This document shows positions 2,004-25,947 of a DNA stretch of 64,000 nt, in pieces. A program made the translations under genes and the position numbers. Each line of letters begins with the position of its first letter. Positions within the stretch are counted from its first letter, which is position 1. Source of the stretch: Stanieria cyanosphaera PCC 7437 (GTDB lineage Bacteria; Cyanobacteriota; Cyanobacteriia; Cyanobacteriales; Xenococcaceae). The DNA is taken from contig NC_019748.1 in assembly GCF_000317575.1 (NCBI RefSeq), positions 310,001-374,000 of the forward strand, written 5' to 3'. The notes beneath the pieces were generated by a model that searched no databases, was not told where the DNA came from, and saw only the letters and a list, made by a program, of their open reading frames with translations.

Positions 2004-3374
2004 TTAAATACTATCGGTAACACTACTAAAATGAAAATTTGTTATTTTACAGCCAGGTATGACGTTGCTTCCGCAGCGTTGTACCTTACCGACAGCTTCT
2101 AAATTAGCAAGCATCTCTGGTAGGCTTTGATTAAAACGCAAATTTTTAACGGGATAGACTAGTTGACCATTTTCAATCAAGAAAGTACCGTCTCTAGTCA
2201 TACCCGTAACTTCTAAAGTTTTGGGATTAACAGAACGAACGTACCAGGCACGACTAACTAAGATGCCTTGTTTCGTTTGTGCAATTAAATCTGAGAGGCT
2301 TTGTGACGAACCTTTCATGACAAGAGGATAAAAAGCTCCTGTTGCTGTTTGTTGTTGTTGCTGCGCCCAATAACGACTATAGGAAAGAGTTTGAGGTATG
2401 CCATCTTTAATGATTTCTAGATAATTATTACTTAAGCCATCACCAAAAAAAGTACTTCCTTGTAATAAAGGGTGAGCAGAGTTACGCTGTACTTGAAGTA
2501 GAGGGCTAAAAATTCTTTCTCCTACTCGATTACCAAATTGACCTTTTTGATCGCTCCGCGCCTCCGCTCTGCCGAGATCGCGACAAGACATAAAAGAACG
2601 GCCTTCATCTGCTGCCCTAGCATCTAAATTCCAAATCACCCAAGGTAATAAACTCCCCATAGCTGCGGGTTCAAAAATTACTGTATAGTTTCCTGGTTTG
2701 ATGGGACGAGGTTGCCGAGATGCGATCGCTTTTTGGATGACTTCTTCAGTTATACTTTCAAGTGGTAATTGTTCGATACTCCAGGCGGTACGATTATTCC
2801 AACTAGAACCATCTTCTTGACGAGCGGTAAAACTAAAATCGGCTTCAGTAGTGCGATCGCAAACTCTTAATCCTGCCGAATTACCAATCGCTTGTAAGGA
2901 GACTGCGCTACTAAGAGTACCTGAACCATTTACCCCTGCATTTTTGGCACGCAGACATATTTGTTGTAGCATTTCGCCTTTGGCAAGAGGAGATAAACTA
3001 GCTGTGGCAAGATCAAACGCAGGAGTTCTTGATTCATAATTCTGGGGAGGAAGTAGTGGCATCCATTCGGGATCTGCTGGTGCAAAACGAGCTAATTCTT
3101 CTGAACGACGTACAGTTTGTTTGATTGCCTCTGGATCAAGTTCGGTGGTAGAGGCAGAAGCACTACTTTTGCCAAAATAACTAATAATAGATAGTTTGAA
3201 GCGATTTTTGCGAATATTTTGACTAATTTGATTTTCGCAAAAGCGACTTAAAGCAGATTCGCTATTGCTGAGGCTAACAAACACCCCTTCAGCCTGAGAT
3301 TGTTTGATGGTAGATTCGATTAATGCTAAAGCTTCTTCTTGAGTGATGAGAGTGTTGGTTGTAGCTAAAGTCAT
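2004..3374 (-). CDS. TldE/PmbA-family protein (metalloprotease-partner type)
   Basis: Member of the TldD/TldE (PmbA) family; in characterised pairs TldD carries the zinc protease site and TldE is the non-metal partner, processing peptides such as microcins and unfolded substrates. This 456-residue protein lacks an HExxxH motif, so it is the TldE/PmbA type. The typical C-terminal region is present, with VSRAWYVRSVNPKTLEVTG and TRDGTFLIENGQ. No tldD neighbour lies in the window, so its partner would be encoded elsewhere. Residues of the segment LGRAEARSD appear to be an in-frame 27-bp insertion (see repeat at 2550-2586). The gene is convergent with the HTH gene at 1698. Its substrate is unknown. 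Confidence 0.88.
   Translation of the reverse strand: MTLATTNTLITQEEALALIESTIKQSQAEGVFVSLSNSESALSRFCENQISQNIRKNRFKLSIISYFGKSSASASTTELDPEAIKQTVRRSEELARFAPADPEWMPLLPPQNYESRTPAFDLATASLSPLAKGEMLQQICLRAKNAGVNGSGTLSSAVSLQAIGNSAGLRVCDRTTEADFSFTARQEDGSSWNNRTAWSIEQLPLESITEEVIQKAIASRQPRPIKPGNYTVIFEPAAMGSLLPWVIWNLDARAADEGRSFMSCRDLGRAEARSDQKGQFGNRVGERIFSPLLQVQRNSAHPLLQGSTFFGDGLSNNYLEIIKDGIPQTLSYSRYWAQQQQQTATGAFYPLVMKGSSQSLSDLIAQTKQGILVSRAWYVRSVNPKTLEVTGMTRDGTFLIENGQLVYPVKNLRFNQSLPEMLANLEAVGKVQRCGSNVIPGCKITNFHFSSVTDSI
2550..2586. repeat. 27-bp GC-rich insertion between GATC copies, inside tldE-like gene
   Basis: A GC-rich 23-bp unit is bracketed by GATC on both sides (GATCGC on the left, GATCGCGA on the right). 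Deleting unit plus one GATC copy (27 bp) restores a single HIP1-like site and shortens the protein by nine residues (LGRAEARSD) without changing frame. The unit is far richer in G+C than the gene around it. The surE copy at 25313-25348 has the same architecture and the same length. Confidence 0.6.
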
Positions 3375-25242: not shown

Positions 25243-25947
25243 ATGACAATTATCCTCACTAATGATGATGGAATTGATGCACCTGGTATTCGAGCCTTGA
25301 AACAAGCTGTCAGCGATCACTACGTGCCTTGCCAAAGGCAAGATCGCTCTATTATTGTTGCTCCAAAAGATCATTATTCTGGTTGCGGACATCAAGTTAC
25401 TACGCATCGACCAATTCAAATAGAATGTCGTTCAGAACAAGAATATGCTGTCGATGGAACTCCTGCTGATTGTACTAGGATTGCCTTAACTAAAATCGCT
25501 CCCGAAACAAAATGGGTGTTTTCTGGAATTAATGCGGGTGGTAATTTAGGGATAGATGTTTATATTTCAGGCACAGTAGCTGCGGTTAGAGAAGCTGCTA
25601 TACACGGTATTCCTGGGATTGCTATTTCTCATTGGATTAAAAGACCATTAATAATTGATTGGAACAAAGCAAGTTTATGGACTGCTGAGGTTTTACAAGA
25701 ATTATTGAATCGTCCTGTTCCTCCTCATAGTTTTTGGAATGTTAATTTACCTCATCTCGAACCAAATCAACCTAAACCAGAAATAGTTTTTTGTCAACCA
25801 AGTATCGATCCTTTACCACTTAAGTTTAGAACGGAAGGAGATTTACACTATTACGAAGGTGAATATTCCCAACGCGATCGCACTTCGGGAACAGATGTTG
25901 ATGTTTGTTTTTCGGGAAATATTGCTGTCACTTTGATCACACTCTAA
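25243..25947 (+). CDS. surE: 5'/3'-nucleotidase SurE
   Basis: Metal-dependent phosphatase that hydrolyses nucleoside 5'- and 3'-monophosphates and is linked to stationary-phase survival. The metal site DDGIDAPG is at residues 6-13, and PKDHYSGCGHQVTTHRP, DGTPADCTRIAL and SGINAGGNLGIDVYISGTV follow. The nine residues HYVPCQRQD between the second helix and the IIVAPKD strand are not expected in the family; they are encoded by a 27-bp insertion within what would otherwise be a GCGATCGC octamer (25313-25348). The insertion is in frame and lies in a surface loop position, so the enzyme may still work. Confidence 0.95.
   Translation: MTIILTNDDGIDAPGIRALKQAVSDHYVPCQRQDRSIIVAPKDHYSGCGHQVTTHRPIQIECRSEQEYAVDGTPADCTRIALTKIAPETKWVFSGINAGGNLGIDVYISGTVAAVREAAIHGIPGIAISHWIKRPLIIDWNKASLWTAEVLQELLNRPVPPHSFWNVNLPHLEPNQPKPEIVFCQPSIDPLPLKFRTEGDLHYYEGEYSQRDRTSGTDVDVCFSGNIAVTLITL
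25313..25348. repeat. 27-bp HIP1-nested insertion inside surE
   Basis: GCGATC on the left and GATCGC on the right flank a 23-bp unit with an internal inverted repeat (TTGCC AAA GGCAA). Removing the unit plus one GATC leaves one intact GCGATCGC and an in-frame surE. By position, 12 of 23 bases match the unit in the tldE-like gene, and both have the same 27-bp footprint. Confidence 0.6.

Follow-up and report, generated by a model that had tools for sequence, protein, structure and literature searches.

Small dispersed repeats of cyanobacteria are the closest described counterparts of the insert analysed here. In Nostoc punctiforme, Elhai et al. (2008) reportedly distinguished eight families of such repeats, 21–27 nt long and present in diverse contexts; SDR5 is said to occur only in HIP1, an octamer abundant in cyanobacteria, and SDR4–6 are said to share a structure with compensatory changes. 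Two other classes of short repeats are relevant, REP/REPIN sequences with RAYT transposases and MITEs, the latter being characterised by terminal inverted repeats and a target-site duplication. In the SDR literature, SDR5 is placed between nucleotides 3 and 4 of HIP1, and cutting directed at HIP1 is suggested as a partial explanation of its insertion (PMC4390886); the approach of another study may, according to its authors, help to explain the origin of SDRs (PMC3116915). REP/REPIN sequences are described elsewhere as having a GTAG or CGTC tag at one end, and the cyanobacterial repeats of Elhai et al. are set apart as being without conserved terminal motifs (PMC3733652).

The insert in question lies in a pmbA/tldE-like gene within the window, i.e. 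the whole 64,000-nt stretch of DNA that was analysed (Table 1). Its kind appears to be SDR5, which has already been described, and the sequence version found here is distinct. The analysis shows 27 nt set at GCG^ATCGC, with dispersed identical copies, empty sites and two hairpins with compensatory changes. We regard the insert, with a probability of about 85%, as a single copy of a mobile element that is very small and non-autonomous and belongs to the SDR5 kind.

The insertion in the pmbA/tldE-like gene

The two Pfam matches of the gene product correspond to the third and second domains of PmbA/TldD, and the NCBIfam PmbA model also matches, but under its cut-off. On the minus strand, the copy reads GCG-ATCTCGGCAGAGCGGAGGCGCGGAGCG-ATC. 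The GATC tetramers at 2549–2552 and 2576–2579 enclose 23 bases with a G+C content of 78%, compared with 36% for the window. The preliminary description had correctly noted this GC-rich stretch of 23 bp between GATC copies, as well as its match to a unit in surE at 12 of 23 positions (counted by eye). The insertion that it located at 2550–2586 is real, but the coordinates are shifted by a few bases: the 27 nt inserted are best placed at 2552–2578. The surE unit with its GATC flanks spans 25315–25345, and on the minus strand the copy there reads GCG-ATCTTGCCTTTGGCAAGGCACGTAGTG-ATCGC.

Table 1. Positions in the window of the two host genes, the two copies of the element and the parts of the first copy
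Feature	Position	Strand	Protein family
pmbA/tldE-like gene, 456 aa, with nine-residue insertion	2004..3374	-	Pfam PF19289 + PF19290
27-nt element between bases 3 and 4 of an imperfect HIP1, inside the pmbA/tldE-like gene	2552..2578	-	
Hairpin 1, 6-bp stem, triloop AGA; one stem mismatch in the window copy, intact in the sister species	2562..2576	-	
Hairpin 2, 3-bp stem CGC/GCG, triloop GGA	2552..2560	-	
Target right half: ATC, then AA where HIP1 has GC	2549..2551	-	
Target left half: GCG	2579..2581	-	
surE gene, 234 aa, holding the second copy	25243..25947	+	Pfam PF01975 SurE, E 2e-48
Second 27-nt member, within surE; site empty in the sister species	25318..25344	-	

In comparison with relatives, the extra block aligns as CRDLGRAEA or an equivalent shift of those residues. 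A search of 27 genomes of the family to which the window genome belongs found the protein in 25. The nine extra residues are present in the window genome and in that of a sister species in the same genus (hereinafter G001), and exactly these nine are absent from all 22 other family genomes that span the site; in one further genome, a contig edge precedes the insertion site, and this genome is not counted as spanning. The insert is likewise absent from all 20 spanning loci, out of 21, in other cyanobacterial records (Microcoleus, Tychonema, Lyngbya, Oscillatoriales and others). The earlier statement that removal of 27 bp takes away nine residues and keeps the frame is correct. Because both sister species carry the insert and the other relatives do not, this copy most likely entered before the two species split. 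The hairpin stem is intact in the G001 copy whereas one stem base is changed in that of the window, so the latter seems to be decaying. The pmbA/tldE-like gene of another genome (L168 in G023) gives a match of 456 codons, the same as in the window, yet is missing the nine residues at the site and, therefore, has extra residues elsewhere.

Copies, target and empty sites

The element has the consensus RTC-TCGGC-nnn-GCCGA-G-GCRC-nnn-GYG and is inserted at GCG^ATCGC. In the genome searched (5.54 Mb, six contigs), the family pattern GATC-N13-GGCRY-NNN-RYGATC occurs 25 times, compared with 0 for the reversed control. A covariance model built from the 25 pattern-matched copies, with the HIP1 flanks included (R1), yields 95 matches at E<=1 and 77 at E<=0.01 in the same genome, and 102 matches at E<=0.01 in G001 (100 in a survey of 60 genomes). 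The 73 strongest of the 77 matches were examined, and the remaining 4, together with 18 weaker ones, are excluded from the counts of copies; these numbers uphold the dispersed miniature family that had been proposed from two copies. Three distinct 27-mers recur identically in the genome, at 3, 2 and 2 places. Local duplication or slippage within the host gene, instead of a mobile element, would account for the GATC on both sides of the insert but is very improbable, being refuted by the identical and near-identical 27-mers that occur at unrelated places, inside and outside open frames.

The spacing GATC-23-GATC, for which a genome-wide search had been suggested, turned out to be unspecific as a family test, and it was the family pattern that separated the copies from their control. 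Among the 144 places with this spacing in the genome, 25 fit the family pattern and 119 fall outside it; for the window, the proportion is 2 of 5. The reversed-pattern spacing control gives 80 places versus 144 but is of little use, since HIP1 favours GATC. At one position (G000:C1:7401-7458; L001, L002), GATC-23-GATC is repeated in tandem in what resembles, by eye, RTX-type coding repeats that are unrelated to the element. The 119 places outside the pattern are in line with a chance origin, whereby the frequent HIP1 yields GATC pairs at 27 bp and the two units in the window are unrelated, but this explanation is practically untenable: it is contradicted by the 25 pattern copies versus 0 in the control and by the covariation of the hairpin stems, and is refuted by the empty sites.

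R1 has at least one match at E<=0.01 in 35 of 60 genomes, the window genome included. Within the family, 21 of 27 genomes have one or more matches, with up to 100 per genome; outside it, 28 of 33 genomes have zero or one match, and 18, 7 and 4 matches were obtained in G049, G048 and G039, respectively. Over 290 genomes of the class, with 24 candidates scored per genome, at least 3, the window genome included, have matches at E<=1e-5. The matches outside the family in G334 and G320 (both f14) and G049 (f24), 1 to 18 per genome, perhaps reflect transfer or an older origin. A BLAST search of plasmids with the element returned six matches (Sagittula, Rhizobium, Sphaerotilus, Novosphingobium) with E from 0.08 to 0.3, which were taken as chance, and the same search with L059 returned none. 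No description of this 27-nt family was found in the mostly open-access literature searched.

Of the 73 copies, 66 have GCG on the left, 57 have ATCGC on the right and 51 have both. An end that the match does not reach was scored as a miss, and the counts are partly circular given that R1 contains the HIP1 flanks. In the 43 copies of 27 nt, the left three bases read ATC (32), GTC (10) or ATT (1), and since they vary by copy, they do not exactly duplicate the target. In all 22 distinct sequences, the final base of hairpin 2 is paired with its partner, and it hence belongs to the element. Taken together, the paired end base and the variable left three bases place the cut at GCG^ATCGC, which is also the position reported for SDR5. 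We read the insert as 27 nt between HIP1 bases 3 and 4 and not as the originally suggested 23-bp unit with a GATC duplication; a repeat of 3–4 bp (ATC/GATC) remains on paper and is not taken as a target duplication.

Coding copies were used to look for empty sites. Of the 33 copies in long frames, 26 were compared with their flanks against G001 and two other genomes, and 7 were left out (the pmbA/tldE copy, two in L089, L107, L123, L126 and L018). Twenty G001 counterparts were retrieved; the six copies without one are L101, L004, L114, L045, L052 and L062, with partial matches for L004 and L052. In 11 of the 20 (L087, L088, L099, L113, L043, L047, L050 in surE, L054, L056, L061 and L067), the G001 site is empty by exactly the length of the element, 27 nt in ten cases and 51 nt in one, the composite L087; in L054, L061 and L067, the gap is split by the aligner. 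Six of these 11 empty sites read intact HIP1, GCGATCGC, one reads GCGATCGT, and four are no longer close to HIP1, having either drifted or never been HIP1. Thus, both the proposed HIP1 target and the expected empty sites in relatives were found. Eight of the 20 sites are occupied in G001, some with altered length (L090, L100, L102, L105, L117, L041, L064 and L065). At L063, the G001 counterpart (L182) is shorter by 21 nt, not 27, which could be a partial loss of the element.

The insert length, calculated as match length minus 8, is 27 nt in 43 of the 73 copies, and the others include copies of 23–25, 28 and 29 nt and composites of 42–53 nt; the matches of L107, L112, L115 and L122 stop short, and L094 has lost its left part. 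Open frames of at least 200 codons, which are not proof of a gene, contain 33 of the 73 copies, with inserts of 27 nt (28 copies), 24 nt (2), 45 nt (1) and 51 nt (2), L107 being put at 51 nt by eye. All 33 are multiples of three, compared with 18 of the other 40 by match length, a contrast that was to be expected and is partly circular, since any other length would disrupt the open frame. Within that limit, the notion that coding copies are a multiple of three long holds, but that of a common length of 27 bp does not, either across the 73 copies or among the 33 in long frames. There is no clear preference for coding strand or frame in these 33 copies (the element and coding strand agree in 18, and five of the six frames are used). 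The element is a source of nine-residue protein insertions. Several of the shorter relatives (L092, L096, L104, L109, L111, L123 and L126; 23–25 nt) have a different first stem, and these relatives are possibly separate subfamilies.

Seven of the 73 copies matched at 42–53 nt with extra sequence, mostly hairpins (L087, L110, L116, L119, L120, L121 and L064), and by eye another four appear to be composites (L107, L112, L115 and L122). The composites contain extra hairpin modules, such as TTCG-looped ones, within the same HIP1 frame. At L064/L177, G001 has the 27-nt unit alone and the window genome has 18 nt more, exactly at GCG^ATCGC; at L090/L179, G001 has two tandem units, and the pair differs by exactly one 27-nt unit. 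In both cases, loss from a longer copy is as possible as gain. The L090/L179 pair looks like a collapse of two tandem copies into one, or like the opposite change, and this would suit copies that spread from one HIP1 site to another by gene conversion or recombination in place of transposition, for which HIP1 would offer 8 shared bp at very many sites (59 in the window). Eight bases are, however, little for homologous recombination, and we consider this route unlikely.

Hairpins and a candidate mechanism

The element forms two triloop hairpins with compensatory stem changes. In the 22 distinct sequences, 94.9% of the pair cells are standard, compared with 85.2% in shuffles and 22–40% in slid controls. 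Changes on both sides affect 5 of the 9 pairs (22 cells versus a shuffle mean of 8.0). Less favourably, the number of further pair types (5) is below the shuffle mean of 6.4, with 500 of 500 shuffles at least as high, and one-sided stem changes are absent. The most common changes are from G-C to C-G at one stem position and from G-C to A-U in hairpin 2. The copies are related, so that the shuffle figure is not a probability, and relatedness inflates the other measures of covariation. In 38 of 43 copies, loop 2 reads GNA or TNC, its reverse complement (shuffle mean 19.8); the same holds for loop 1 in 21 of 43 (shuffle mean 10.6). Upon folding, two of three element strands beat the shuffles; the minimum-energy fold of the pmbA/tldE copy, with its one changed stem base, is no better than its shuffles (z 0.20). 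Hairpins with GNA loops of the d(GCGAAGC) type are very stable in DNA, and for this reason, the loops would point to single-stranded DNA over RNA.

Under the proposed mechanism, the element would move as a single strand, folded so that its two stable triloop hairpins are exposed; a putative enzyme supplied in trans would join it at HIP1 with no target duplication. A copy ending in GCG would rebuild HIP1 at its right end, where a further hairpin module could insert, giving rise to composites; inside genes, only frame-keeping copies would be tolerated.

In a more specific form of this mechanism, the hairpinned single strand would be mobilised by HUH-type (Y1) transposases of the IS200/IS605 or RAYT kind, which may be the case but is rather doubtful. 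The lack of a separable target duplication, the fixed short target and the hairpins near both ends are consistent with such enzymes, as is the correlation between the counts of elements and of PF01797 matches over the 27 family genomes (rho 0.51, p 0.007, with kinship ignored). Conversely, G001, which has the most elements (100), has only 3 PF01797 matches, and G015 has 27 PF01797 matches and 6 elements; nor is there a REP-like GTAG tag or a strand bias by chromosome arm. The strand test covered 66 copies in the window genome and 97 of the 102 G001 matches (5 were left out), and the best split along the chromosome was reached by 435 and 587 of 1000 permutations in the two genomes; this lack of bias also weighs against the general reading as a mobile element.

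Comparison with known systems

As a proxy for SDR5, we take the 21-nt Nostoc HIP1 insert TAGGCGYAGCCCGYCGYAGRC. The proxy repeat was found in 32 plasmid records (Nostoc, 27; Trichormus, 2; Tolypothrix, Aulosira and Calothrix, 1 each). Each of the ten loci inspected has 21 nt within HIP1 (with one changed HIP1 base in L197), a context that is partly circular as the query contained HIP1 bases. The form occurs eight times in 400 kb of one Nostoc plasmid, and a motif-free scan for inserts of 14–33 nt between GCG and ATCGC gave it as the top repeated insert. By eye, it also folds into two triloop hairpins, whose loops are GTA or GCA. With 2 mismatches allowed, 7 of 8 genomes of family f33 contain the proxy pattern (G233 has 96 copies), and 0 of the 9 genomes tested from the family of the window do. 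R1 has no match under E 0.001 in the 8 f33 genomes and in 7 plasmid records of Nostoc or Trichormus. In the genomes tested, the 27-nt element and the SDR5 proxy thus do not occur together; they have in common the target, the insertion point and the architecture but not the sequence.

A speculative and rather improbable generalisation is that HIP1 might be a docking site common to sequence-unrelated hairpin elements of different cyanobacterial families, in which the insertion point and the two triloop hairpins (GNA, on either strand) would be all that is conserved, with one-sided rebuilding of HIP1 stacking modules into chains. If so, a putative single-strand enzyme that reads structure would work across the phylum.

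The 77 and 102 matches in two sister species, the precise empty sites and the fixed HIP1 target make it possible to test among close strains what moves SDRs. The proposed element is among the smallest mobile elements that have been proposed, and HIP1 gains a role as an insertion site.

With MITEs, the element shares its small size and non-autonomy, but it has neither terminal inverted repeats nor a separable target duplication and is several times smaller; its two ends are different hairpins, and the left copy of the ATC/GATC repeat reads GTC in 10 of 43 copies. Like REP/REPIN sequences with RAYT, it is short, dispersed, hairpin-forming and probably mobilised in trans, and it differs from them in the fixed octamer target, in the location of 33 of 73 copies in long open frames and in the lack of an end tag, neither GTAG nor CGTC being present as such in the alignment and consensus of the 25 copies, where GTAG appears only inside some hairpins. 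From the SDR5 proxy, whose identity with SDR5 is assumed, it differs in length (27 versus 21 nt) and in primary sequence. The likeness to SDR5 extends to the insertion point between HIP1 nucleotides 3 and 4, with the exact octamer at 6 of 11 empty sites, to the length, 27 nt in 43 of 73 copies against a reported range of 21–27 nt, and to the structure, in that the covariation seen here matches the compensatory changes that SDR5 is said to have.
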